From the NCBI GenBank assembly GCA_902762795.1, contig CACWPM010000008.1:1-64000 (forward strand): 64,000 nt of DNA, read 5' to 3'. Position numbers and translations under genes: made by a program. Positions 46,330-62,639 of this stretch are shown here, piece after piece (the first letter of the stretch is position 1; each line of letters opens with the position of its first letter). A model generated the notes under the pieces. That model made no database searches, was not told the DNA's origin, and worked only from the letters and a program-made list of their open reading frames with translations. Origin of the DNA: Fibrobacter succinogenes. Lineage in GTDB: Bacteria; Fibrobacterota; Fibrobacteria; Fibrobacterales; Fibrobacteraceae.

Positions 46330-47835
46330 CTAAACTTCCGGCTTCATGAGCGGGAAGAGCTGCACGTCGCGGATGGTCTGCTGGTTCGTGAGGAGCATGA
46401 CCATGCGGTCGATGCCGAAGCCCACGCCACCCGTCGGCGGCAGGCCAGATTCGATAGCATGCATGAAGTTTTCGTCCATCGGGTGCGTTTCACCTTCGCC
46501 ACCGCGGCCACGGCGGACCTGATCTTCCAAAAGTTCGCGCTGACGGATTGGGTCGTTAAGTTCGGTGTAAGCGTTACCAAGTTCCCAGCCGTTGGCATAC
46601 GGTTCAAACTGTTCGATAAGGCCTTCGATTGTGCGGTGCTTCTTGCAGAGCGGAGTGCTTTCCGTCGGCATGTCCTTGATGAACGTCGGCTGGATGAGCT
46701 TGTCTTCAACAGTGAGTTCGAAGAGTTCCAAGATGCCACGACCGCGAGAGAATTCGCCATCAAGATGACCGCCGAGTTCTTCCATCTTGGCCTTGATTTC
46801 GTCGTCGCTCATTTCGTTGACCTTGAGGCCGCCGAACTTTTCAATGGCTTCAATCATGCTGTAGCGCGGCCACGGGGCCTTGAAGTCGATTTCCTTGCCC
46901 TGATACTGAATCTTCGTTGTGCCGTTTGCTGCAATGCAAGCGCGTTCGTAGATGTTTTCGAAGTGCACCATCATGTCGTTGTAGTCGGCATAAGCTTCGT
47001 AGAATTCGAGGCCAGTGAATTCCGGGCTGTGCGTGCGGTCCATGCCTTCGTTGCGGAAGTTCTTCGAGAATTCAAAGACCTTTTCCATGCCGCCCACGAT
47101 GCAGCGCTTGAGATAAAGTTCCGGAGCGACGCGCAAGTAAAGCGTCATGTCGCAAGCGTTGTGGTGCGTGGTAAACGGACGAGCGTTCGCGCCACCGTAA
47201 ATCGGCTGGAGCGTCGGCGTTTCCACTTCGATGAATCCCTTTTCAATCAGGTATTCGCGGATAGCCTGCATGATCTTGGAACGCTTGATGAAGACTTCCT
47301 TCACGTCGTCGTTCAAAGCCATGTCGATATAGCGCTGACGGTAGCGGGTATCCACGTCGGCAAATTCGTTGAACACAACCTTGTTGCCGTTTTCGTCAAT
47401 CTTTTCCTTAGCGACCGGAAGCGGGCGCACAGCCTTCGAAAGCATCGTCACCTTTTCGGCACGCACAGAGTATTCACCGCTCTGCGTTTCGAACATCGTA
47501 CCGTTCACACCGATGAAGTCACCGAGGTCGGTCATCTTCACAATTTCGTAGTTTGCCTCGCCCACTTCGTCACGGGCAACCACAACCTGCAAGCGACCAT
47601 AGCGGTCCTTGAGGTGCATAAAGCACATCTTGCCCTTGCGATTGAAACGCACCACGCGGCCGGCAAATGCAACCGGTTCCTTAGAAGCCATCAAAGCTTC
47701 CTTATTTTCCTTCAAAACCTTGGAATCATGGGTCCTGTTAAACTTGTGAGGATAAGCCTCTACACCCATTTCCTTGAACTTGTCGAGCTTTGCCAAGCGA
47801 GCCTGCACCTGGTCATTCATATCTTGCATTGCCAT
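46330..47835 (-). CDS. lysS: Lysyl-tRNA synthetase (class II)
   Basis: A 501-residue class II synthetase that charges tRNA-Lys. The N-terminal OB-fold anticodon domain (about 55-150) contains GRVVRFNRKGKMCFMHLKD. Motif 2 is in FRNEGMDRTHSPEFT and motif 3 in GVGFGIDRMVMLLTN near the end. The ATG is preceded by a GAGGT site. It probably leads an operon with the four-helix-bundle and lol genes downstream on the same strand. Confidence 0.96.
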   Translation of the reverse strand: MAMQDMNDQVQARLAKLDKFKEMGVEAYPHKFNRTHDSKVLKENKEALMASKEPVAFAGRVVRFNRKGKMCFMHLKDRYGRLQVVVARDEVGEANYEIVKMTDLGDFIGVNGTMFETQSGEYSVRAEKVTMLSKAVRPLPVAKEKIDENGNKVVFNEFADVDTRYRQRYIDMALNDDVKEVFIKRSKIMQAIREYLIEKGFIEVETPTLQPIYGGANARPFTTHHNACDMTLYLRVAPELYLKRCIVGGMEKVFEFSKNFRNEGMDRTHSPEFTGLEFYEAYADYNDMMVHFENIYERACIAANGTTKIQYQGKEIDFKAPWPRYSMIEAIEKFGGLKVNEMSDDEIKAKMEELGGHLDGEFSRGRGILELFELTVEDKLIQPTFIKDMPTESTPLCKKHRTIEGLIEQFEPYANGWELGNAYTELNDPIRQRELLEDQVRRGRGGEGETHPMDENFMHAIESGLPPTGGVGFGIDRMVMLLTNQQTIRDVQLFPLMKPEV

Positions 47836-47956
47836 ATTATTTTACCTCGTGAATATATCACGTCTTAAATTTGAACGCGGTAAAGATAGCTTTTTAGCAG
47901 ACAGTAGGAAGTAGGAAGTAGGAAGTTTGCGACCATAAAAAAGAACAGACAGGCCC

Positions 47957-48207
47957 ATTTTGCCGGTTTTATGCTACCAAAAACCATATTTTTCCCATTT
48001 TGGTATCACAAATTTTAACTTGTTCGTACAATTTCAAGGAAGGTTGAACTATACTATGCTACCAATTCGCCACTTTTAGCCAACTTGGTAGCACAAACAG
48101 CGCTACAAAGCCTCCAAATCAGCCAATTTCGATTAATTTATATAAAAAACATGATACCAAAAAGCACTTTTTTCAGCTTTTGGTAGCACTTTTTAGCATT
48201 TTCGGGC
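47957..48207. repeat. Three-unit 39-bp palindrome element, copy 2
   Basis: Three 39-base inverted-repeat units lie at 47971-48009, 48056-48094 and 48151-48189, with centres 85 and 95 bases apart. Arms are ATGCTACCAAAA/TTTTGGTATCAC, ATGCTACCAA/TTGGTAGCAC and ATGATACCAAAA/TTTTGGTAGCAC. It matches the element at 9706-9955 in unit length, spacing and parts of the spacers. It lies between the divergent lysS and 48529 genes. Nearer lysS, at 47903-47926, are three tandem AGTAGGA copies. Confidence 0.85.
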
Positions 48208-48386
48208 TTTTGAGACAATGAAAAATCAGCAAACAGCCCACAAGCGCGCCGGTTTTTTCGCCATTTGATAAGCCATCCGTTGACCCACTAAAAAAATTCA
48301 CACACACCGCGCACTTAAAGCGAGAGTATATCTCCAAATACGCGATCTTAGCTTTTATAAAAGCATCTGTTTTTGCTGAATGACGG

Positions 48387-48497
48387 ATGGTTCTTCAGTC
48401 AAAAGGATATATATTATATTTAACAAAAAATGTAGAAACGGTATTTCCAAAATTGATTGTAGAACTAATTCAGGAAAAGTTAAAGGGTGATGAATAA
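48387..48497 (+). CDS. Possible 36-codon ORF ahead of the 1200-residue gene
   Basis: A short frame starts at ATG 48387 (MVLQSKGYILYLTKN...) and ends in two stops 31 bases before the large gene. It has no clear ribosome site. It may be a real small protein, the 3' remnant of a lost upstream gene, or chance. It is listed because nothing else explains this stretch. Confidence 0.22.
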   Translation: MVLQSKGYILYLTKNVETVFPKLIVELIQEKLKGDE

Positions 48498-48528
48498 TAA
48501 GGCTTGAAGATGAAAAGAGGAAAACATA

Positions 48529-51500
48529 ATGATAGATGATTATATTTTACAGAGAGATTGTAATTTAATAAATTCATATTTGAACAAAAATGAATCTCTC
48601 CCCAAAGAGAAGTATATTGATTTTTCTTGGAATCCCGCCTTATTCTTTGCAAAAATCATTCTTGCTTCGCAAAATCATACTGCGTTAACCGAAACGATCA
48701 TACAAGCGGATATTGCAGAATATAATCAAGCTAAGGGAACGAATGTCTCGCTAGATTATTTGTTAAACCGATTCTGGTTAAGAAAAGTTTTGGGACAAAT
48801 AAAAATCTCTGAAGCAATATTGCGATTATTCTCGAACGATAAAATTGTAGAAATACCGGAAGAACTTAATGACGACGAATTGACAGAAAACTTCCATTTT
48901 ATGGAATTTTTGGTAAAAAAATACAAATACGAAGATTCAAGAACCTGTGAGATTTCCTCGGAAGTATTTGACTCAATATACATGGAATTCAAGACTTTTT
49001 ATCCTAAAATGCCTGAATTACAAGCTCTTTTGCAAGAATATTTAATAACAAAAGAAAAGGATAAATATGTCTTTGTGTTGTGGAGGCTAGAACTAAAAGT
49101 CAATAAAGAGTTTTTATCATCGTACATTTTATACTCATTGTTCCAAAATAGAGATCCCTCACAGGATGCAGAATCACTAAAAGAATGGTTGGTTGCCACA
49201 AAGTTTATTTTTTGTCCAGAAGCTTTTGAGTCTCTATCTGAATGGCATAAAGAACGTTATATAAAAACAGCAGTGGAATTGTTGAAGAATGAATATGATT
49301 TAGAAGATGGTCATGAGAGCGAAAAATTTTTATTGAATGAAGATTTGAGTTTTTGTTCTTTTTATTCAGCAAAAGACATTATATTGAGAAATGGATTGTC
49401 TGATTATACTATAGAATCAAAAGAACCTCTTGTTCGGTGGTTGAAATTCTTTTCAAATCGAGAGAGAAGGGTAGATCTTTTAGATTATCATATTCGAGAG
49501 GACTGCATAAAGCTTTTGCAATCATTGCTGATTTATTTGATAAAGAATCCTAAAGCTATAGCTCTTTTAGATTTATTTGAAAATAAATCGTATTTACTAT
49601 ATCAAACAATTTTTTATTTAGCGCGAATTAATCCGGCCTATCTGCTAGCATTTGTTGACAATAAACAATATGGGTTAATTTTCTTTTGTTCGTTCCTTAT
49701 ATTGTGCGAGGATTCGTTTAATAAAAAGATTGCTGATGAACATTTTCCTTTCAAGCTAATCGATAAATATACAAGTCTATTTTGTGAAAAAAATTTAATT
49801 AGCAAAGAGAATTATCGAGACGCGTCTTTGCTTTTGATGTTTTTAATTGAGGGTGTATATAATAGTAGATGGCCGGCTTTATACAAAAATGTTTATGAAA
49901 AAGTATGCTCTTTTCCTATATACGAGAAGCCAACAAATTTTTTTACATCAGAGGCGTTAGACTGTAGTAAAAAGAATGCTAAAGATATATGGATTCAACT
50001 TATTCGACAGATAAAAATATGTGAATTTAAATATTTATTTTTCTTTTATACAAAGACCGAATCCGTTGAGAAAAATCAATGTTTTGGTTTGATAAAGGAC
50101 TTATATGAAAACTCTGTTCTAAAAAACGAAAAGTTTGATTATTGGAGTGAATGGAATGAAATTGATTCGCTTGAATGGGGACTCTTTTTTAATCAACTCT
50201 GTGAATCTGGACTATTAAGAGATTTTTGCTTAAGTATTTTTGGTTATCTCAGTTTTGATGAAAACGAAAGTGATTTTGGAAAAAAATATTCTGGTCCAAA
50301 AAAGCTTCGCTTACATCTAAAATTATTGTGCTCAGTCTATTCTGAATGGTGTAAGTATGAAAGCAATGAGAAAGTGGAAATATTGGAAGAATGTATTGTT
50401 GTAATTCTTCAAAATTGCTTTGTAAATAGAATTGAAGAGAAAAAGATTGCTGTTTTTGATTTGTTGTATGAATCGCACTGGGGTGTTGGTTTTAAAACAG
50501 AGTTGTTTCCGCAGGTAATTGATGTGTTGATGTCTTTTTCTGAAGCAAATAGAAAACGTGTTCTTTTGGCGATGTCAAAGGGCGATGATTTAAAGCTGAT
50601 GATAAAGGCCTATAATTTAATAGATAATGAAAATGATCAAAAACTATTAAAGGAATTGATGGATTTTTCAATAGATGTTGAACGCTCAATTTCATTTTTT
50701 GATGATTACATCTCCTTCTTGCGTGATTTGTATAATTCGCATATTAATAATGAGCTTGCGGATAAGCTTTATGAGAAATTGGAGAAAAATGTTGAACAAC
50801 GGGCGAATGGTCAAATTGTTGCCTCATTTGTGCTTAATGCTCAAATTTTGAAATTGTATAGCATGTTTTGGCACGGTGATGAAAAAAGTTTAAGTGATTA
50901 TAAATGTCCTTATAAGGATGTCGATGGCCGGTTCAAGGATGGCTTGAACAATTTGGAAAATGAGCGCTGTTTTTTGTTGACGCTAATGTATATCAAGAAT
51001 GGAAAAAATGAGGATGCCCAGAGAATTGTAAAAAGGATTAGATGTCAAGACTCTGATTTTTTTGCTTTGAAATATAAGTCGTTTGCTCTATACTTGTCTG
51101 TTTTTGATTCAAAAAATAGTTCCAACTATGCAGAATTATTAAAACAGTGTGATGCACTAATTGATTTGTCAAAAAATAAAATGTGGGCGAAAGAAAAAAT
51201 ATCCTATGATGGACTTCAATATCTGTATTATGCAAAGGTGCGCCTTTTAGAAAAAATTGGGGATTGTGATAAACTCTATCGATTCTATAATTCTGTAGAA
51301 GATGACTATCATGCTGTTTTTGAATTTGCGAAACCGGTTATGGCTTGCCTGCTCAATCAGGGCCGGAATGTGGAGGCCATTAAAGTATGTAATACGATTC
51401 GTCCATCTGAAAAGGAAATGCTGGAATATGAAAAACTAAAGAAAAGTATTCCAGTAGAAAATGAAATTTCTCGCTTAGCTAATTCCTATAAGGATATCCT

Positions 51501-52131
51501 ATGTTTAAGTAAAGAAGATCGATTCAAAGTCTTGCCGGATGTCGTGTGTAAACATCGAGAAAATGTCAGCAGTTTTGTTATTCATTCAGTATATTTTTGC
51601 TTGGAAAAAATTCTTCGAAAGATTAAAACACTAAAACTTTTGCCAGAAGATAATAAAACTGATTTAATTCAGATAACAATTGAAGCATATCTAAAGACTT
51701 TAAATTACGAAAACGATAAGGATCAACCGCATCGAGGTCTTTCGTCATCGAAGAAACAAGCCGGTGAGTTGGATTTTGTATTAGATTTTGATACATTTTC
51801 CGTTGTTTTTGAAGCCGTAAGGTGTGATTCGTTTAGTCAAAATGTAAGAGAACATATCTTAAAAATATTCCATTATGATTCGTCAAAAAGAATTTTCGTT
51901 AACTTGTTGTATTATGAAGGAAACAATTCTGATTTCTTGAATCATTGGGAAATAATTACTCAAAAAACATCCAATAATTCAGATGTCGTGTATCCACAAA
52001 ATTTTAAATGTTTGTCTTGTAAAGATATCTCTAATGAATTTGGGAATGCTTCAATTAAAGTTTTGAAAAATACTCATGAAAACGAATTAGAATTTTATCA
52101 TATATTTGTCAATTTAAGTTATGCGGATTAA
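48529..52131 (+). CDS. Unrecognised 1200-residue helical protein, candidate defence protein
   Basis: A very large, mostly alpha-helical protein with no transmembrane segment and no family recognised over residues 1-1050. The gene is visibly more AT-rich than its neighbours, with many AAA, TTT and ATT codons, and lies between housekeeping genes, which suggests transfer. An AGAGG site precedes the ATG. The C-terminal ~150 residues contain SSSKKQAGELDFVLD at about 1072-1086 and SVVFEAVR near 1091-1098. A GELDF aspartate followed 13 residues later by a Glu in a beta-strand resembles a degenerate PD-(D/E)XK nuclease core as found at the ends of some large anti-phage proteins. That reading, and a defence role, are inference. 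Confidence 0.85.
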   Translation: MIDDYILQRDCNLINSYLNKNESLPKEKYIDFSWNPALFFAKIILASQNHTALTETIIQADIAEYNQAKGTNVSLDYLLNRFWLRKVLGQIKISEAILRLFSNDKIVEIPEELNDDELTENFHFMEFLVKKYKYEDSRTCEISSEVFDSIYMEFKTFYPKMPELQALLQEYLITKEKDKYVFVLWRLELKVNKEFLSSYILYSLFQNRDPSQDAESLKEWLVATKFIFCPEAFESLSEWHKERYIKTAVELLKNEYDLEDGHESEKFLLNEDLSFCSFYSAKDIILRNGLSDYTIESKEPLVRWLKFFSNRERRVDLLDYHIREDCIKLLQSLLIYLIKNPKAIALLDLFENKSYLLYQTIFYLARINPAYLLAFVDNKQYGLIFFCSFLILCEDSFNKKIADEHFPFKLIDKYTSLFCEKNLISKENYRDASLLLMFLIEGVYNSRWPALYKNVYEKVCSFPIYEKPTNFFTSEALDCSKKNAKDIWIQLIRQIKICEFKYLFFFYTKTESVEKNQCFGLIKDLYENSVLKNEKFDYWSEWNEIDSLEWGLFFNQLCESGLLRDFCLSIFGYLSFDENESDFGKKYSGPKKLRLHLKLLCSVYSEWCKYESNEKVEILEECIVVILQNCFVNRIEEKKIAVFDLLYESHWGVGFKTELFPQVIDVLMSFSEANRKRVLLAMSKGDDLKLMIKAYNLIDNENDQKLLKELMDFSIDVERSISFFDDYISFLRDLYNSHINNELADKLYEKLEKNVEQRANGQIVASFVLNAQILKLYSMFWHGDEKSLSDYKCPYKDVDGRFKDGLNNLENERCFLLTLMYIKNGKNEDAQRIVKRIRCQDSDFFALKYKSFALYLSVFDSKNSSNYAELLKQCDALIDLSKNKMWAKEKISYDGLQYLYYAKVRLLEKIGDCDKLYRFYNSVEDDYHAVFEFAKPVMACLLNQGRNVEAIKVCNTIRPSEKEMLEYEKLKKSIPVENEISRLANSYKDILCLSKEDRFKVLPDVVCKHRENVSSFVIHSVYFCLEKILRKIKTLKLLPEDNKTDLIQITIEAYLKTLNYENDKDQPHRGLSSSKKQAGELDFVLDFDTFSVVFEAVRCDSFSQNVREHILKIFHYDSSKRIFVNLLYYEGNNSDFLNHWEIITQKTSNNSDVVYPQNFKCLSCKDISNEFGNASIKVLKNTHENELEFYHIFVNLSYAD

Positions 52132-52206
52132 TTTTTTAATGGGCATGAAAACAACCTTTTAAAAAGCCAATTTTCACAAAAAATCGGAAGACAGAAACGT
52201 AGAGTT

Positions 52207-52241
52207 TAGAGGTCCGCCGGTATCCCGCAATCGGCCCTCTA
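52207..52241. repeat. Inverted repeat downstream of the large AT-rich gene
   Basis: TAGAGGTCCG and CGGCCCTCTA form a 10-base arm pair with one mismatch around a 15-base centre that itself is GC-rich. It lies 75 bases after the stop, in otherwise AT-rich sequence. It could be part of a terminator or an end of the inserted island. Confidence 0.4.
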
Positions 52242-52327
52242 GGCGTAAAAATTGTGGTCTGACGCCGCATTTTATCCCCCCCCAACGCAGCAAGGAACTC
52301 CAGTACAATTTGACAAATCAAAAAAAT

Positions 52328-52491
52328 CCATTTTGTCATTTTGTGACAAAATGGGAATGTATATTTTGCAGTGTAGTAATCTTGCGTTTTTTTTGCTTGT
52401 AACGCAAAGGAGTTGATGATGAAAGAAATGAAAAGCGTCCCATAAACTTGTTGATGGAACCTGGTTGCAAATTGTGACCGGTTCCTTTTTT
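52328..52491 (+). other. Candidate short transcript: dyad, hairpin, ribosome site, 9-codon ORF and terminator
   Basis: A perfect 11-bp inverted repeat (CCATTTTGTCA/TGACAAAATGG, 5-base loop, 52328-52354) is followed by a TATATT hexamer at 52360. Next is a TTGCGTT/AACGCAA hairpin (52382-52407) touching an AAGGAG site, then a tiny frame MMKEMKSVP at 52416-52445. A terminator follows: GGAACCTGGT with ACCGGTTCC, then six T, at 52456-52491. It may be a small RNA or leader, or the scar of a deleted gene. No partner is known. Confidence 0.4.
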
Positions 52492-52501
52492 AATACGGAG
52501 G

Positions 52502-52530
52502 TTGACAAGTAATAAAAAGTAATATATATT
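52502..52530 (+). promoter_or_regulatory. Sigma-70-type promoter of the toxin-antitoxin locus
   Basis: TTGACA at 52502-52507 is followed after exactly 17 bases by TATATT at 52525-52530, 20 bases ahead of the toxin ATG. The AT-rich palindrome-like sequence around the -10 may be the antitoxin operator. Confidence 0.7.
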
Positions 52531-52549
52531 TATTATATACAATATTTTC

Positions 52550-52778
52550 ATGTCGAGAAGAGTTTCTCGGGCTGTTTCCGCAATGCCCCAAAAGCAGCAA
52601 GAAAAACTTGCATTGCTTGTTGACGACATACGGCTGAACGGCTCCGTCAGAACAAATTGGCCAAATTACGGAATATTGGCAGGAACATCTATTCATCATT
52701 GTCACCTATCCCACAAATGGGTGGCAGGAGGTTACTTATGCAGGCAGTCGTGGAAGCGCCCCCTATGCAGAACACTGA
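52550..52778 (+). pseudogene. Frameshifted HigB/RelE-type toxin gene
   Basis: The first frame reads through AMPQKQQEKLALLVDDI, SVRTNWPNYG and HCHLSHKWVA, typical of HigB-like mRNA interferase toxins. Right after WVA the frame is wrong. Shifted by one base, the sequence continues VTYAGSRGSAPYAEH and stops at 52778, matching the family C-terminus. The residues normally between these two segments (roughly a dozen) are missing. A short deletion has therefore removed a strand and shifted the frame. The toxin is probably inactive, while the antitoxin start inside its 3' end is intact. Confidence 0.78.
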
Positions 52779-53148
52779 TGAACCGGTGTCTTTCAAGGTT
52801 TCGGGCAAGAATATTCCGAAACCAGTCATTGCCTTTTTGGACGCGCTGTTCCCCAATTCCGTCCGTATCGAAGACGACGATGACGTTCTAGAGCCAGTGG
52901 AAGAAATGGACTGGTACAAGAAGGCGAAAAAAAATATTAATCCAGCCAAGACCTTGAAAATAATGCGTGTAAATGCGGGACTTACGCAGGCCCAGCTAGC
53001 CCAAAAAGTTGGTCTCGCAAAACAGAATTACAATTCGCTTGAACGGGGGGCCAGACCCATTTCTATGCTTATGTCAAAGAAGTTAGCCGATGCGCTCGGG
53101 ACATCTTATTTGATGTTTTTTCGAGAAAATAAAAGTCGTGCGCCTTAA
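52738..53148 (+). CDS. higA: HigA-type antitoxin with XRE helix-turn-helix
   Basis: A 136-residue protein; an AGGAGG site 6 bases upstream fixes the ATG at 52738, inside the toxin 3' end. An acidic N-terminal part is followed by an XRE helix-turn-helix (about 74-128: TLKIMRVNAGLTQAQLAQ, then QNYNSLERGARPIS). It would neutralise the toxin and repress the promoter. With the toxin gene broken, it may persist as an orphan regulator or anti-addiction gene; that is inference. Confidence 0.85.
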   Translation: MQAVVEAPPMQNTDEPVSFKVSGKNIPKPVIAFLDALFPNSVRIEDDDDVLEPVEEMDWYKKAKKNINPAKTLKIMRVNAGLTQAQLAQKVGLAKQNYNSLERGARPISMLMSKKLADALGTSYLMFFRENKSRAP

Positions 53149-53174
53149 ATCTGTCGCATTTTTTTTATACACCA

Positions 53175-53209
53175 ATAAAAAAACGACAACTTAACTAAAA
53201 GTTGTCGTT
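53175..53209 (-). terminator. Terminator of prfC
   Basis: An 11-bp perfect stem, AACGACAACTT with AAGTTGTCGTT and a 6-base loop, is followed on the minus strand by TTTTTTATTG. The T run is only on the prfC side. It may also slow plus-strand transcription from higA. Confidence 0.85.
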
Positions 53210-53218
53210 AAAAAAGGT

Positions 53219-53244
53219 GATTCCCGCTCGGAGGCGGAAATGAC
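53219..53244. repeat. GTCATTTCCGC dispersed repeat
   Basis: Reading on the minus strand, GTCATTTCCGCCTCCGAGCG is followed by GGAATC. It belongs to the same GTCAT-starting hairpin style as copies at 18928, 32470, 40870, 54924 and 55279. Confidence 0.55.
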
Positions 53245-53282
53245 AAAAGCATAACCAAGAAGCAATCTCTTCCTACTCCCCA

Positions 53283-54848
53283 CTACCCTTGCGAGGTTTC
53301 GGCGAAGCTCAAGCGTTCGTAGTTTTTGAGCGCAAGATTCAGGCGGTATTCGTTCGGGAACAAGCAAACGAGATTGCGTTCCTTGTCCATCATGCAGTCA
53401 CCGGCGTATTCGTCGGCAAACTTGCCCACATCTTCTTCGGGGCCGTTCACCCAGCGAATGCAATGAGCAGGCACGCGATCGAGTTGCACATCGGCGCCGT
53501 ATTCGCTCTGCAAGCGGAACTTGAGCACATCGAACTGGAGTTCACCCACGACGCCCACGACAGGCACGGCGGACTTGAGCGGTTCATAGAGCTGCGTTGC
53601 GCCTTCTTCCGAAAGTTCGGCAAGGCCCTTCGCCATCTGCTTGGACTTGAGCGGATTCAAGAGCGTCACGCGGGCAAAGTGTTCCGGAGCAAAGTCCGGG
53701 ATACCCGTGAAGTTCATCTTTTCGCCGTCCGTGAGCGTATCGCCAATGCGGAAAAGTCCCGGGTCGTTGATACCCACGATGTCGCCCGCCCAGGCGTGGT
53801 CAATGACTTCCTTGTCCTTCGCGAGGAATGCGGTCGGAGCAGCCAAGCGGATGTCACGGCCGGTACGCACATGGAAAACCTTTTCGCCACGGGTAAAGCT
53901 TCCCGAGCAAATGCGGAGGAATGCCGTGCGGTCGCGGTGTTTCGGGTCCATGTTGGCCTGAATCTTAAAGACAAACGCGCTGAAAGCGTCTTCGTCCGGC
54001 TTGACCGGGCGCTTGTCGGTGTCGCGGATCATCGGCGGCGGAGCGAGTTTTGCAAAAGCGTTCAAAAGCTGGCGCACACCGAAGTTGTTCACGGCAGAAC
54101 CGAAGAACACCGGGCACATTTCGCCCTTGAGGAACTTTTCGTGGTCGAACGGATCCATACCGCCCGTGACCATTTCATATTCTTCGCGGAATTGCGCGAC
54201 CCAGTTTTCACCGCAAAGTTCAACGAGACGCGGATCATCCGGGCCTTCCATCTGGATAATTTCTTGCTTGCCATCGTCCGGGTTGAACGTGTGGAACGTA
54301 TTTTCGGCAATGGAGTAGACGCCCTTGAAAAGCTTACCGACGCCAATCGGGAGCGTAAACGGAGCCGTCTTAATCTGCAAAACGCTTTCAATCTGGTCGA
54401 GCAAGTCGAGCACATGGCGACCATCCAAGTCCATCTTGTTGATGAACGTGATAATCGGCGTATGGCGCATGCGGCAAACATTCATCAAGCGAATCGTCTG
54501 CTTTTCAACACCGTTCACGCTATCGATAAGCACGAGAGCGGCGTCCACGGCGGTAAGCGCACGGTACGTGTCTTCGCAGAAGTCCTGATGCCCCGGGGTA
54601 TCGACGAGGTTGAACATGCAACCTTCGAACGGGAAGTTCAGCACGGAACTCGAAACAGAAATACCACGCTGCTGTTCAATCTTCATCCAGTCACTGACCG
54701 TGTAGCTCTTGTTGGCCTTCGCGCGCACGTGACCAGCCTCGCGAATCACATTCCCGTACCACAGGAATTTTTCGGTGATGGTGGTTTTACCGGCGTCAGG
54801 GTGGCTGACGATGGCGAAAGTGCGGCGTTTTTCAATTTCTGGATTCAT
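53283..54848 (-). CDS. prfC: Peptide chain release factor 3
   Basis: A 521-residue translational GTPase that recycles release factors 1 and 2. G motifs are SHPDAGKTT near residue 15, DTPGHQDF near residue 87 and NKMD near residue 141. The domain after the GTPase and the C-terminal RF3 domain are complete, and length matches the family. It is a single gene with its own terminator. Confidence 0.95.
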   Translation of the reverse strand: MNPEIEKRRTFAIVSHPDAGKTTITEKFLWYGNVIREAGHVRAKANKSYTVSDWMKIEQQRGISVSSSVLNFPFEGCMFNLVDTPGHQDFCEDTYRALTAVDAALVLIDSVNGVEKQTIRLMNVCRMRHTPIITFINKMDLDGRHVLDLLDQIESVLQIKTAPFTLPIGVGKLFKGVYSIAENTFHTFNPDDGKQEIIQMEGPDDPRLVELCGENWVAQFREEYEMVTGGMDPFDHEKFLKGEMCPVFFGSAVNNFGVRQLLNAFAKLAPPPMIRDTDKRPVKPDEDAFSAFVFKIQANMDPKHRDRTAFLRICSGSFTRGEKVFHVRTGRDIRLAAPTAFLAKDKEVIDHAWAGDIVGINDPGLFRIGDTLTDGEKMNFTGIPDFAPEHFARVTLLNPLKSKQMAKGLAELSEEGATQLYEPLKSAVPVVGVVGELQFDVLKFRLQSEYGADVQLDRVPAHCIRWVNGPEEDVGKFADEYAGDCMMDKERNLVCLFPNEYRLNLALKNYERLSFAETSQG

Positions 54849-56137: not shown

Positions 56138-59100
56138 TTATTTCTTTTTCTTGTTCGCGCTATTGCCGCGGACATCCTTCGGCTTGAACGTCACATTAAT
56201 TTCAACGTTCGTCACCTTGGAGCCAAGGCCAGCCGGGTCAAACACCTTGTACGTAAACTCGTCAATTCCAGAGAAACCCTTGTTCGGGGTGTACTCGAAA
56301 GAACCGTTCGTTTCGTTCAAGATGATTCTACCGTTGCGCGGTTTCATCACCGTCTTCACAGACTGAAGCTTATCGCCATCCGGATCCTTAGCAGCAGACA
56401 TAAGACCGGTAGAGGCAGGAACTTTGAGCACTTCACCTTCGCGAGTCTGGTAAGAGAGAGGTTTCGTTTCAGGCGGATTGTTCACGGCAACCACCGTAAA
56501 TGTAGCCGTCTTATGAGCGGTTCCGCCATCCGGGTCCGTCACCGTGAAAGTAATGCGTTCCGGCTTGCCCTTCCAATGAGAATACGGCTGAGCCACAATC
56601 ACAGTCTTCTTCGCCTTATCATAAGTCACCTGCAACTGCTTCTGGCCCGTAAATTTCCACTTGAGGTCATCGAAGTTGTGGTCCTTATCGCGGGCGTACT
56701 GGTCGAGCTTAATCGTTGCAATTACACCTTCATTCTGATTTTCCCTGATAGTAAAGTCAGGAATATCACGCATGACAGGAGGTGCATTCACATGCTTAAC
56801 AACAAACTTCACGACAGACTTGTCCGAGGCTCCGGCCGGGTCCGTTGCGGTAAAGACGATCGTTTCTTCACCGAACCAGTTGTCCCTTCTCGGCTTGATT
56901 TCAGCAACGTGGTTAGCATTGATTCTCACATCAATGTTCTTTGCGCCAGAAACGCTCCACCTGATTTCATTCTTCTTGTGGTCCGGATCGCTAACAAAAT
57001 CATCCAAGTTAACGGACTTGAAAGCCTTGCCTTCAAGCGTTGTCTGCCCCGGAATTTCCTTAACAACCGGAGGGTCATTCACCGACTTCACGGTAAAGCG
57101 AACATCGACAGAAGCCTTTTCCTTGCTTGGGTCAAACACATTGATTGTCACTGTTTCGCTACCATTCCAGAATTTGTCCGGAATTTCGACAGTGAGAACA
57201 CCTCTATCGCTGATGTTGTACTTGAGTTCATGCTTTGACTTTTCGGCAGGAGCTTCATCTTCATGCTTCCTGCCCTTCTTGTTCTTTTTGTTATGCTTGG
57301 ACTTTGCAGAAGCAGCCGAAGCAAATGGATTTTCGCCATCAATCGACCACTTGAGTTCGCTAACGCTGTTATCCGGGTCTGTCACAAACTTAGTCAAGTC
57401 AATCGACGGGAAGGTCTTCTTTTCATCGATAACCTGAGCCGGGATGGGCTTAAACTTAGGCGGATCGTTTACAGGAACAACCTCGAACGTTGCCTTGGTA
57501 GACTGTTTGTCACCAGACGGATCCATCACAGTAAACGTAAGTGTTTCCTTACCAAACCAGTTCGGGTTCGGAGTCGTGATAGAAGCACGACCATTCTTGA
57601 TATCTACAACAAGTTCGTTGTTGCCAGAAACAGACCACTTGAGTTCATTCGGCTTGTTATCCGGGTCATTCACAATCTTCGCAAGATCTACCGGAGCAAA
57701 TCTTTCCTTTTCCTTGATTTTCTGGTTGCCAGGTTCCTTGGTAATCACAGGCGGATCATTCACCGGGGTCACTTCAAAGTCAATCTGTTGAGAAGCCCTA
57801 GCGCCTTCCGGGTCCGTCACATCAATTCGAATCTTTTCCGAACCGTTCCAGTATTTTTCCGGAGTCGTCACCACGAGCTGCTTTTTCGCATTGATAGAAG
57901 CCTTGAGGGCGCGAGTCGGAGCGACCTCGATCTTGAGAGAACTCAGCGGATGGTCAGGATCAGAAACAAACGTCGAGAGGTCTATCGGTTCAAAACGTTC
58001 CTTTTCCTTGATTTTCTGAGCCAAAATCGGTCTAATAGTCGGAGGATCATTCACGGATTCAACAATAAAGTTGACAGTCTTGGAATCCGAGGCGCCTTCC
58101 GGATCCTTCACGGTAAACACCACATTGCGTTCGCCATGCCAATGCGGATCGGCAACCTTGATCTGGGCAAGTCCACCCTTATAAATCACGACACTGAAGG
58201 GATCCTTTACATCATCTTCTTCATCGTCATCGCTCTTACTCTTCTTGCCTTTCTTGCCCTTCTTGGTATTTTCAGTCCCAACCTTCAATACCTTGACACC
58301 CCAAGAAAGCTGTTCCATGCTATTATCCGGGTCACGGACAAACTTGCTCAAATCGATATCCTTGAAAGAACCCTTTTCGCGAATCTTCTGCGGCGGGATA
58401 TCCCTCAAGACCGGCGGATCGTTCACCGACACGATTTCAAACGTAATGGTCTGGGAAGTCTTCGCACCATCCGGATCGCTCACTTCGAGCATCATCATTT
58501 CAGGAGCACACCAGAAATCCTTGTTGGGAGCCGTGACCGTAAGCACGCGACTCGGGGAAATTTCAGCCTTGAGTTTCTTCGCGCCAGAAATTTTCCAGCG
58601 GAGTTCAGTCGGCTTATTGTCCGGATCCTTCACAAATTCATCAAGCTTAATTTGCTTGAATGTTTCCTTTTCCTTAATTTTCTGGTCAGGAATCCTATTC
58701 ACGAATACAGGAGGATCGTTCACGCGGGTCACTTCAAAGACCATCTTGTGGCGAGCGTAAGCACCTTCCGGGTCCGTCACGGAGAACGTGAGAGACTCTT
58801 TTCCACTCCACTGTTTGTCCGGGACTGAGATAATCACGGTGTTGTCCCTGCGAACATCCACCTTGAGTTCCCTATTGCCAGAAACTTCCCATTTCAAGGA
58901 AGAAGCCGGGTGGTCCGGGTCTTCGGCGAGAGTCGAGAGGTCGATTGTCTTGAAACGACCGCCTTCAAGTATTGTTTCACCAGTCGGAGCATTAGCTGCA
59001 ATTACCGGAGCATCGTTCACGGAGCGCACTTCAAAGCGAGCAGTCTTGCTTGCAGAAGCACCTTCCGGGTCCGTTACCGTAAACGTAATGTTTGCCGCAC

Positions 59101-62100
59101 CATGCCAATACTTGTTCGGGATAACAATGTTTGCCACCTGATCCGCACCGACCTGAACGCGGAGATTTTCTCCAGCCATATCATCATCGCCCTTGCCCTT
59201 CTTCTTGGAAGAACCCTGACTAATCGGGCTTACCTTGAAAGTCCACTTGAGATCGCTAATCTTGTGATCCGGATCCTTGACAAAGTCAGCAAGCTTGATC
59301 GGCTGGAACTGTTTCTTTTCGTCAATAACCTGGTCGCGGAGATCACGGACAAATTCAGGGACATCGTTCACGGAAAGCACCGTAAAGGTCACTTCCTTGC
59401 TATCCGAGGCGCCATCCGGGTCCGTTACCGTAAAGCGGATCTTTTCAGAACCGTTCCAGCTTGCGCTCGGCGGCGTCACCGTCACCTTGTGTGCAGCATC
59501 CATGGCAACGCGAAGTTCCTTGTGGCCTTCCATCTTCCACTTGAGGCGATTCTTGGCATGGTCCAAATCTTCGACAAAGTTGTCAAGTTCAATCGGCTTA
59601 AACGATTCCTTTTCCTTAATCGTCTGGCTTGCAATTTCCTTCATGATCGGAGGATCATTCACAGAAACAACCGTAAAGGTCGCCGTTGTACGAGCCTTCG
59701 CGCCAGAAGGATCCGTCACCGTGAACGTGATCTTTTCGGAACCGTTCCACATCTTGGTCGGCGTCTTTACAGTCACAAGACCAGTCTTCGACATATCGAC
59801 CTTGAGGTCCTTATTGCCCGTAAAGTCAATCTTCAAACTTTCAAAACGGTCATCCGGGTCAGACACGAGTTCAGCTACGTTGAACGCCGTGAATTCACCC
59901 TTTTCCTGAATAGTCTGGTCGGCAACCTGCTTAATTTCCGGGAGATCGTTCACGGATTCCACCGTGAAGAGAGCCGAAGAAGAAGCCTTGGCACCTTCCG
60001 GATCCGTTACCGTAAACGTAATTTCTTCAGCTCCGTTCCAGAACTTGTTCGGAATAACAATCGTTGCAACCTTGTTAGCGTCTATATCGACCTTGAGTTC
60101 AGATTCCCTCTTCTTGGAACCGGCGGCCGGCTTGCTAGAAACGGAGAACGTGAGTTCAGAGAGCTTGTTGTCCATGTCCTTCACCATGTCGCCAAGCTTG
60201 ATCGGCTGGAACTGTCCTTTTTCACGAATCGTCTGCGGCATCACCTGCTTTACAAACATCGGCACGTCATTCACGGATTCGACCGTGAAGTTCACCGTGC
60301 GTTCATCGCACGCGTTATCCGGGTCACAGACCTTGAAGGTCAACGCTTCGGCACCATGCCACTGCGGTGATGGAGGCGTGATACGCGCAACGTGCGCACC
60401 GTCCATGGCAACCTTGAGTTCCTTGTTTCCAGTAATCGTCCACTTGAGGCGATTCTTGGCGTGGTCAAGATCTTCGACAAAGTTATCAAGTTCAATCGGC
60501 TGGAATTCACCCTTTTCCTTGATGGTCTGTTCACGAATGTCCTTCATGACCGGCGGATCGTTGATAGCCTTTACAGTAAACTTCGCAGAAGACGTTGCAC
60601 GGGCGCCTTCCGGGTCAGTCGCCGTAAACGTCAACGTTTCGGTACCGTTCCACTGTTCATGCGGAATCTTCACTGAAACTTCGTGAGACTTGGAATCGAT
60701 ATTGACCTTGAGATCCCTGTTGCCCGTCACTTCAACCTTCAGCTTGGAGAAGTCGTGGTCAGCATCACTCAAGTAGTCATCCAGAATAAACGATGAAAAT
60801 TCATTCTTTTCGTCAATAGCCTGGTCCGGGATTTTCTTGAATACCGGCGGATCGTTCACAGAACGGACATTGAGAGCGACATCCTGCTTGGCAGAACCGC
60901 CTTCCGGGTCCATCACGGTAAATGTTGCAACAGTGTTGCCGAACCAGCTCGGATCCGGGATTTCAACCGTAGCGACATGATTATCGTCAATAGAAACGTT
61001 AAGAGTTCCCAATTCAGGCATCGGGCCCTGGTGCTTGACTTCGACATCCCAGGAAAGTTCGGAATTCTTGTGATCTTCGTCCTTGACAAATTCATCAAGT
61101 TTAATCTTGGTGAACTGCTGTTTTTCGTTGATGTTCTGGTTCGGAATCGGACGAACGAATTTCGGCAAATCGTTCACGGAATTGACCGTAAACATAGCTT
61201 CACATTCTGCAGAGGCGCCATCCGGGTCCGTTGCGGTAAACTTGATGGATTCGGAACCGTTCCAGAGTTTATTCGGAATGCGAATCGTAGCGACTCCGCC
61301 TGAAACAGAAACCTTCAAGTCCTTGGCACCCGAAATAGCCCACTTGAGCATTTCAACACGATGATCGGGATCCTTCACATACTGACCGAGCTGGATAGGT
61401 GCAAATTCCTGTTTTTCCTCGATCGTCTGGTCAGGAATATTCTGAACAAATTCAGGAGCATCGTTAATGGATTTCACCTTGAAAAGAACATCCTGCGTTG
61501 CGGTCGCACCGGCAGCATCAGTCACCGTAAATGTCACGCGTTCCTGACCGTTCCAGAATTCATTCGGGATTGTCACGATCGCAGAACCGTAATTATCGAT
61601 TTCAATCTTAAGGTCCTTGTTGCCCGAAACAGTCCACTTGAGTTTCATGACATCATCATCAGGGTCCGAGACAAAATCAGCAAGAGAAATCATGTCAAAC
61701 TGATTTTTTTCTTCAATGACCTGGTCAGGAATCTTTTTTGTGAACTTCGGGGGATCATTGACCGGCTGGACTGTAAAGGCGGCCGTCTTGTTGTCACTTC
61801 CGTAATCAGGGTCATTTGCAATAAACTTAATTCTTGCAGCACCATACCAATGTGCATCCGGAACGACAATCGTCGCCACGCGGTTACCGTCAATCGTTAC
61901 AGACAAATCACCATCAGCCTGCGGACCGCCGGCAGGGACAATTTCGGTATCCCACGTAATCTGGTCTTTCTTGTGGTCCGGGTCATTCACAAAATCATCT
62001 AGGCGAATCTTGGCAAACTGCTTGCCTTCCGTAATCACCTGGCTTGGAATTTGGGAGACCACGGGAGGATTGTTCACGGATTCAACGGAGAAATTCACCG

Positions 62101-62545
62101 TTTCAGAAGAGCTTGCGCCCTTGGAGTCCGTTGCCGTAAAAGTCAAATCTTCAGAACCGTTCCAAAGCGCATTCGGAGTCGCAATTTCAACCGTATGGTC
62201 CGGAGCAATCGTTACCTTGAGGTTTTTGTTACCACTTACCTTCCAACGGATTTGCGAAGGTTGGTCCGTGTCGTCCGTGACAAAATTATCAAGTTTAAAT
62301 TTCGAAAAAGTCCCGCCCTCCTGAATAGATTCGCCAGGGATTCCGCTAACTTGAGGCGGTTCATTCGCCGGTGCAGGTTCTGCAACGGGCTCGCTTACAG
62401 GCGCAACAGGAGCTGTTGCCGCTTGTGGTACCGGTGCTGCTTGAGGAGCAGGAGCCGCTGGTGCCGGATTTTGTGCAAACGATGACGTTGCTATCACACT
62501 AGCAGACGCAAGCAAAGTCGCCATGGACCTTTTAAATTTTTTCAT
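56138..62545 (-). CDS. Giant secreted protein of about 20 cadherin/Ig-like repeats
   Basis: A 2135-residue exported protein. The ATG at 62545 is placed 7 bases after GGAG and gives signal peptide MKKFKRSMATLLASASVIAT ending near SSFA. A Pro/Ala-rich stretch (about 26-60) follows, then about 19 repeats of ~100 residues. Each starts with an NDPPV-type motif and contains I-x-EK, a DPDH-type acidic loop, LKW or LRW, WNGSE and FTVTDPEGA, a cadherin-like calcium-binding pattern. A final different domain (about 2030-2120) with FEYTPNKGFSG and FTYKVFDPAG ends in a Lys-rich tail. Three repeats carry long Lys/Asp-rich inserts. It is likely a surface adhesin or matrix protein. Confidence 0.9.
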   Translation of the reverse strand: MKKFKRSMATLLASASVIATSSFAQNPAPAAPAPQAAPVPQAATAPVAPVSEPVAEPAPANEPPQVSGIPGESIQEGGTFSKFKLDNFVTDDTDQPSQIRWKVSGNKNLKVTIAPDHTVEIATPNALWNGSEDLTFTATDSKGASSSETVNFSVESVNNPPVVSQIPSQVITEGKQFAKIRLDDFVNDPDHKKDQITWDTEIVPAGGPQADGDLSVTIDGNRVATIVVPDAHWYGAARIKFIANDPDYGSDNKTAAFTVQPVNDPPKFTKKIPDQVIEEKNQFDMISLADFVSDPDDDVMKLKWTVSGNKDLKIEIDNYGSAIVTIPNEFWNGQERVTFTVTDAAGATATQDVLFKVKSINDAPEFVQNIPDQTIEEKQEFAPIQLGQYVKDPDHRVEMLKWAISGAKDLKVSVSGGVATIRIPNKLWNGSESIKFTATDPDGASAECEAMFTVNSVNDLPKFVRPIPNQNINEKQQFTKIKLDEFVKDEDHKNSELSWDVEVKHQGPMPELGTLNVSIDDNHVATVEIPDPSWFGNTVATFTVMDPEGGSAKQDVALNVRSVNDPPVFKKIPDQAIDEKNEFSSFILDDYLSDADHDFSKLKVEVTGNRDLKVNIDSKSHEVSVKIPHEQWNGTETLTFTATDPEGARATSSAKFTVKAINDPPVMKDIREQTIKEKGEFQPIELDNFVEDLDHAKNRLKWTITGNKELKVAMDGAHVARITPPSPQWHGAEALTFKVCDPDNACDERTVNFTVESVNDVPMFVKQVMPQTIREKGQFQPIKLGDMVKDMDNKLSELTFSVSSKPAAGSKKRESELKVDIDANKVATIVIPNKFWNGAEEITFTVTDPEGAKASSSALFTVESVNDLPEIKQVADQTIQEKGEFTAFNVAELVSDPDDRFESLKIDFTGNKDLKVDMSKTGLVTVKTPTKMWNGSEKITFTVTDPSGAKARTTATFTVVSVNDPPIMKEIASQTIKEKESFKPIELDNFVEDLDHAKNRLKWKMEGHKELRVAMDAAHKVTVTPPSASWNGSEKIRFTVTDPDGASDSKEVTFTVLSVNDVPEFVRDLRDQVIDEKKQFQPIKLADFVKDPDHKISDLKWTFKVSPISQGSSKKKGKGDDDMAGENLRVQVGADQVANIVIPNKYWHGAANITFTVTDPEGASASKTARFEVRSVNDAPVIAANAPTGETILEGGRFKTIDLSTLAEDPDHPASSLKWEVSGNRELKVDVRRDNTVIISVPDKQWSGKESLTFSVTDPEGAYARHKMVFEVTRVNDPPVFVNRIPDQKIKEKETFKQIKLDEFVKDPDNKPTELRWKISGAKKLKAEISPSRVLTVTAPNKDFWCAPEMMMLEVSDPDGAKTSQTITFEIVSVNDPPVLRDIPPQKIREKGSFKDIDLSKFVRDPDNSMEQLSWGVKVLKVGTENTKKGKKGKKSKSDDDEEDDVKDPFSVVIYKGGLAQIKVADPHWHGERNVVFTVKDPEGASDSKTVNFIVESVNDPPTIRPILAQKIKEKERFEPIDLSTFVSDPDHPLSSLKIEVAPTRALKASINAKKQLVVTTPEKYWNGSEKIRIDVTDPEGARASQQIDFEVTPVNDPPVITKEPGNQKIKEKERFAPVDLAKIVNDPDNKPNELKWSVSGNNELVVDIKNGRASITTPNPNWFGKETLTFTVMDPSGDKQSTKATFEVVPVNDPPKFKPIPAQVIDEKKTFPSIDLTKFVTDPDNSVSELKWSIDGENPFASAASAKSKHNKKNKKGRKHEDEAPAEKSKHELKYNISDRGVLTVEIPDKFWNGSETVTINVFDPSKEKASVDVRFTVKSVNDPPVVKEIPGQTTLEGKAFKSVNLDDFVSDPDHKKNEIRWSVSGAKNIDVRINANHVAEIKPRRDNWFGEETIVFTATDPAGASDKSVVKFVVKHVNAPPVMRDIPDFTIRENQNEGVIATIKLDQYARDKDHNFDDLKWKFTGQKQLQVTYDKAKKTVIVAQPYSHWKGKPERITFTVTDPDGGTAHKTATFTVVAVNNPPETKPLSYQTREGEVLKVPASTGLMSAAKDPDGDKLQSVKTVMKPRNGRIILNETNGSFEYTPNKGFSGIDEFTYKVFDPAGLGSKVTNVEINVTFKPKDVRGNSANKKKK

Positions 62546-62639
62546 TTTCATTCTCCGATGCCATACACGCAATCAAAATTTCCCTATGAAATTTTTCAAA
62601 CGTCATTAAAAACGTATTTAAATATAACGCTTTTTCCCA

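Follow-up and report, generated by a model that had tools for sequence, protein, structure and literature searches.

What is a very large, AT-rich gene doing between two housekeeping genes of Fibrobacter succinogenes? The question arose from a stretch of 64,000 nucleotides (contig CACWPM010000008.1 of assembly GCA_902762795.1, hereafter the window), for which a preliminary description, made from the letters alone, had proposed a single-gene anti-phage factor: a long helical sensor ending in a possible nuclease. The features on which the first part of the analysis relies are:

46330-47835: lysS, the upstream flank of the gene, named from sequence
48529-52131, plus strand: the 1200-residue gene, a helical body followed by a C-terminal PD-(D/E)XK-like domain, from sequence and alignment
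53283-54848: prfC, the downstream flank of the gene, named from sequence
47884-53178, unstranded: approximate extent missing from the same site of genome G072, by comparison with that genome

An intact, compositionally foreign gene at a variable site

The gene is an uninterrupted reading frame of 1200 residues, without internal stops, whose ATG start is preceded by a AGAGGAAAA-type ribosome site, and it is present once in its own genome. It had been described as AT-rich and compositionally foreign, and this was confirmed: its GC content is 31% as compared to about 50%, GC along the window is 30-34% between 48 and 52 kb and 48-53% in the flanks, and third-position GC is 0.28, versus 0.69 in lysS and 0.70 in prfC. 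The genome of a sister species (G084) keeps the gene in the same lysS-prfC place, with 82% identity across all 1200 residues. Comparison of the two copies gave a dN of 0.094 and a dS of 0.553 (dN/dS about 0.17); the gene is real and under purifying selection.

Divergence between these two copies is uneven along their length. Differences at fourfold sites amount to 16/67 in residues 1-300, 52/125 in residues 301-980 and 6/63 in residues 981-1200, and the contrast between the last two segments has a Fisher P of 4e-6, which is descriptive only, because the segment boundaries were picked after inspection of the data. Recombination is the simplest reading of this mosaic. The 95% identity of the C-terminal part was also considered as a sign of special constraint, and this was ruled out because synonymous sites are alike there as well (dS 0.10, versus 0.71).

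Insertion among housekeeping genes, also part of the preliminary description, was borne out by comparison with relatives. The G072 site matches the window to about position 47884 and resumes at about 53178, leaving approximately 5.3 kb extra in the window, and in G072 and four other genomes the lysS-prfC gap is short and does not contain the gene. The site is therefore a presence/absence locus for the gene, through either gain or loss. The gap was then compared in the 15 genomes in which it was readable, in addition to the window's own, and its size ranged from 237 bp to 10 kb. The 1200-residue gene occupies it in its own genome (G000) and in G084; proteins with HD-CE and HATPase domains are found there in G004 and G101, the latter also carrying a KAP NTPase (PADLOC class PDC-S49) with SocA/Panacea; G098 has a SocA-like gene and G086 an ATPase-like reading frame; G072, G083, G001, G014 and G082 hold nothing notable. 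Overall, the gap (window 47836-53283; loci L024, L025, L030 and L061-L071) is a variable hotspot, with differing defence-type genes or nothing.

Next to the gene lies a toxin-antitoxin pair:

52553-52737, plus strand: remnant of a HigB-like toxin gene, put out of frame by a deletion, by comparison with G084
52738-53148, plus strand: intact XRE-type antitoxin gene (HTH_3, E 2.7e-12)

This pair had been called decayed, which is true of one partner only: a loss of about 32 bp relative to G084 has put the toxin gene out of frame, while the antitoxin reading frame is intact. G084 and G004 have an undamaged pair.

Some further observations concern the surroundings of the gene. Upstream, positions 47836-48237 also occur in several relatives without the gene, and a short stretch of this segment is found again elsewhere in the gene's own genome (G000 C4). 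At the 3' side, an element of approximately 100 bp (52209-52306) is single-copy in its own genome and occurs as copies spaced by kilobases in G030, G083 and G087; no Rfam match was found for it, and it is possibly a cassette-type recombination site. Beside the locus, positions 56138-62572 encode a repeat protein of 2144 residues with a cadherin-like look.

A rare and dispersed family

The preliminary description had regarded the protein as an orphan, and this did not hold. A direct search with the whole protein against phage and plasmid records and viral and genome contigs gave no match, no model in Pfam, NCBIfam, PADLOC (2023) or PHROGs matched it, and a sequence search of the PDB was likewise negative. 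Profile searches for homologues and their neighbourhoods, as had been proposed, gave relatives in Fibrobacterota, Proteobacteria, plasmids and a contig from a viral collection. With a C-terminal profile run over 168 Fibrobacterota genomes, three matched at E below 1e-30; three weaker matches (G063, G147 and G087) were dropped as short or repeat proteins. One further strong Fibrobacterota relative, in G090, is full length (1205 residues, 27% identity), and it was from this copy that the family was reached stepwise: it led to plasmid copies in Edwardsiella, Burkholderia and Salmonella records, and a further step led to 14 loci in Beta- and Gammaproteobacteria and to the viral-collection contig. 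Altogether, about 18 proteobacterial, plasmid or viral contigs encode proteins of 1200-1290 residues with the same C-terminal domain, some of them broken; the full-length ones measure 1252-1291 residues, the other loci being frameshifted or truncated. Among 398 Pseudomonadota genomes, four have a copy, one of these being the centre genome itself, and no DNA match to the Salmonella homologue was found among 5,426 E. coli genomes. The gene is a horizontally spread, accessory and patchily distributed one.

Not all homologues sit in core-genome settings: several have defence or mobile genes next to them, as observed locus by locus. In G090, 58 bp separate the end of hsdS from the start of the gene, and the type I restriction operon to which hsdS belongs also encodes a YhcG/DUF1016 nuclease; the Burkholderia copy lies about 84 bp downstream of an OLD-like ATPase gene, with a reverse transcriptase nearby. 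Near the Salmonella copy is a HATPase/HSDR_N gene, and near that on the Edwardsiella plasmid are a PIN/HTH pair and a recombinase. The copy in Pseudomonas L051, which is frameshifted, lies close to CBASS-type NucC, TRIP13 and HORMA genes. At other loci the neighbours include a NERD-domain gene (L048), TnsB (L050), integrases (L055 and L059) or IS elements (L056 and L060). Several homologues have ordinary neighbours only. A separate observation is that of a protein starting MEFSEYYVAYFDVLG, seen inside a type I restriction-modification operon (L039:5933-6883) and again near a toxin-antitoxin pair in G094 (L026:1367-2437); the L039 copy has no Pfam match.

The C-terminal domain resembles PD-(D/E)XK nucleases

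Alignment, structure prediction and profile comparison delimit the following domain and motifs:

51637-52128, plus strand: C-terminal nuclease-like domain, residues 1037-1200
51646-51651, plus strand: E1040-D1041, motif I, in the first core helix, invariant in the alignment
51772-51774, plus strand: D1082, motif II (GELDF), invariant and kept in G423 and G527
51811-51813, plus strand: E1095, motif III (FEAVR), invariant and kept in G423 and G527
51853-51864, plus strand: H1109-x-x-K1112, motif IV, putative migrated catalytic lysine, in every copy not truncated there

The GELDF and FEAVR motifs pointed out earlier are both present, and their acidic residues are among those identical in 16/16 aligned full-length homologues (E1040, D1041, G1070, S1072, G1079, E1080, D1082, E1095 and A1096), across both Fibrobacterota and Proteobacteria. 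H1109, K1112, Y1116 and D1117 are kept in 15 of the 16, the exception being a copy truncated by an insertion. Moreover, the D, the EA and the HxxK are retained even in a remote stand-alone form (G423) and in a remote fused one (G527). Comparison of the Fibrobacterota and proteobacterial C-terminal profiles (E 5.8e-8, probability 94.7%) indicates that these domains are homologous.

With respect to the PD-(D/E)XK superfamily, the invariant D1082 lies on a predicted strand, as the motif II aspartate should, and E1095 provides the acidic residue of motif III on the next predicted strand. Position E+2 of motif III is V or F, not K. The basic residue would instead come from motif IV, K1112 lying on the following helix, as in described variants whose motif III lysine is displaced to the helix following the third strand (PMC1913061). 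Since the HxxK pattern fits this documented variant, the domain is probably best read as a PD-(D/E)XK nuclease whose catalytic lysine has migrated. The earlier proposal of a degenerate PD-(D/E)XK core stands as to the superfamily; the core appears to be a migrated-lysine variant (K1112) and not a degenerate one. The families DUF506, DUF790 and DUF1626 (PMC1913061) share with it the acidic residues in the first helix, the D on a core strand, the E on the next and the basic residue in the following helix. Unlike PD-(D/E)XK families, the window domain has no sequence family match, and its pattern is GxSxS...GExD, FEA, HxxK, YD, YHxxxN; unlike those three variants, it is fused to about 1000 residues of putative helical repeat.

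The predicted structure is compatible with this assignment. The model of residues 1037-1200 (mean pLDDT 59, pTM 0.52) has the order H-E-E-H-E-H-E-E-E, with an a-b-b-a-b core in which the first strand is weak, D and E on adjacent strands and H/K on the next helix; the Sideroxydans homologue (L047) has the same core order, its C-terminal domain being predicted at a pLDDT near 80. Plain Foldseek with the window model gave no match at E 0.001, and its tyrosine phosphatase matches (E above 3e-3, rmsd around 10) were set aside as chance. In a structural second look at the Foldseek candidates (VIA), McrC came first (Z 6.9, 107 aligned residues, rmsd 4.3), followed by RPB5, the nuclease region of Cap4, EcoT38I, Kpn2I, OkrAI, EndoMS, MspJI and BamHI, mixed with unrelated chains; 'Upx' (9wuf) also turned up. 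The fold matches are thus dominated by nucleases, though weak, and do not point to an unrelated fold. As every Z is below 8, the fold alone is unconvincing, and it is motif conservation that carries the nuclease case.

The body may be a helical-repeat sensor

48529-51627, plus strand: helical body, residues 1-1033, a putative sensor and TPR-like alpha-solenoid, from the transferred L047 model

The L047 model (residues 58-1257) has a mean pLDDT of 73, with most of residues 380-960 at 80-90 and a poorly predicted N-terminal 300 residues. For residues 544-962, TPR and PPR proteins were matched with a VIA Z of up to 12.7, a level common for helical repeats, and the L047 body is accordingly predicted to be a TPR-like solenoid. 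Because homology between Fibrobacterota and proteobacterial bodies is weak (body-to-body profile match at E 0.013, probability 3%), this model is transferred to the Fibrobacter body, which by its equal size and order would also be a TPR-like alpha-solenoid; a TPR_19 match in the window protein (E 0.0097) is below cut-off. The helical remainder of the preliminary description is thereby supported by prediction in L047 and by analogy in Fibrobacter.

No GxxxxGK[ST] Walker A motif was found in proteins P0001-P0003, and no P-loop in the body. Some homologues do contain GxxxxGK[ST], solely within the nuclease loop; their GxSxSGKS was rejected as a P-loop, being missing from the Fibrobacterota copies and others.

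A probable one-gene defence, and its alternatives

Taken together, the purifying selection, the conserved motifs, the models, the accessory distribution and the defence or mobile neighbours at several loci suggest that the 1200-residue protein is probably an undescribed one-gene antiviral defence. The preliminary proposal is largely supported in this form. That it is both an active nuclease and anti-phage we consider reasonably likely, the nuclease fold of the C-terminal domain being the more secure part of this model-based claim. The helical body would act as a sensor or autoinhibitor, and on sensed infection the C-terminal, metal-dependent nuclease would be activated and cut nucleic acid of the phage, the host or both. 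The domain order and the absence of an ATPase would favour activation through direct binding or through a conformational release, as in DSR2.

Several known systems are comparable. STAND nuclease-sensor proteins (Avs) combine a PD-(D/E)XK-type effector and a repeat sensor in one chain, as the window protein partly is predicted to do; unlike Avs, its body lacks the ATPase motif (Walker A), and the domain order is reversed. McrC, the best structural match in the second look (Z 6.9 over 107 residues), differs in requiring the McrB GTPase, and the window has no McrB. As a mode of action, DSR2 is similar, being a large single protein with a long sensing part, one toxic enzyme and no P-loop (PMC11087589). 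However, the DSR2 effector is an NADase at the opposite end, no sequence relation was seen, and the window protein has no Pfam match to the N-terminal Sir2 domain that is the hallmark of DSR2. The PD-(D/E)XK systems validated in E. coli with DefensePredictor, a TPR label among them, have, as predicted for the window protein, a nuclease core within an otherwise unassigned protein (PMC13092281).

A broader reading, which we regard as tentative, is that of a modular immune family in which a single nuclease domain, so far uncatalogued, serves both as the end of one chain with a fast-diverging helical sensor and as a separate subunit with an ATPase partner. The sister alleles, alike at both ends and divergent in the middle (residues 301-980), would as part of this reading look as if sensor segments had been swapped by recombination, an equally tentative suggestion.

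Among the alternatives, the protein might be an effector dependent on a partner, either an ATPase or a restriction-modification system, and not a stand-alone system. In G423 the related domain is encoded by a gene of its own (335 residues) that directly adjoins one for an AAA/SMC-type ATPase; these lie next to an SRA-HNH gene and an integrase, and the nuclease-domain and ATPase genes (L085:8257-11016) are likely a two-gene system; the spacings of 84 bp after the OLD-like ATPase gene in Burkholderia and 58 bp after hsdS in G090 point the same way. Nevertheless, most copies, including that of the window, have no adjacent partner, and partners vary by locus, so that dependence on one seems rather unlikely. 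Somewhat less likely still is a nuclease serving repair, the upkeep of an element or competition between elements (plasmid, prophage, island) in place of anti-phage defence: the plasmid, viral-collection and island copies agree with it, but the gene is a patchy accessory one (3/168 Fibrobacterota at E below 1e-30; 4/398 Pseudomonadota, including the centre genome), several neighbours are of defence type, and no linkage with replication or repair genes is seen in the window.

It is also improbable that the domain is nuclease-like in fold yet catalytically dead, binding only nucleic acid or protein. RPB5, a structural, non-catalytic domain of the restriction-endonuclease-like fold, is among the fold matches, and the lysine is absent at E+2; nevertheless, very divergent copies, the stand-alone form included, retain the acidic and basic residues of the motifs, which would be unusual in a dead enzyme, and lysine migration is documented in the superfamily (PMC1913061). 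Finally, a pseudogene or passenger DNA, to which the AT-richness, the broken adjacent toxin and the frameshifted or truncated homologues might point, is very improbable given two full-length 1200-residue orthologues with a dN/dS of about 0.17.

If the one-gene defence reading is correct, this would be a widespread yet rare defence family missed by current libraries, for which four catalytic residues can be named and of which the culturable genera Citrobacter, Pseudomonas and Burkholderia carry intact, closely related copies. In addition, the lysS-prfC gap would stand out as a hotspot of defence genes in a fibre-degrading lineage that has been little studied.
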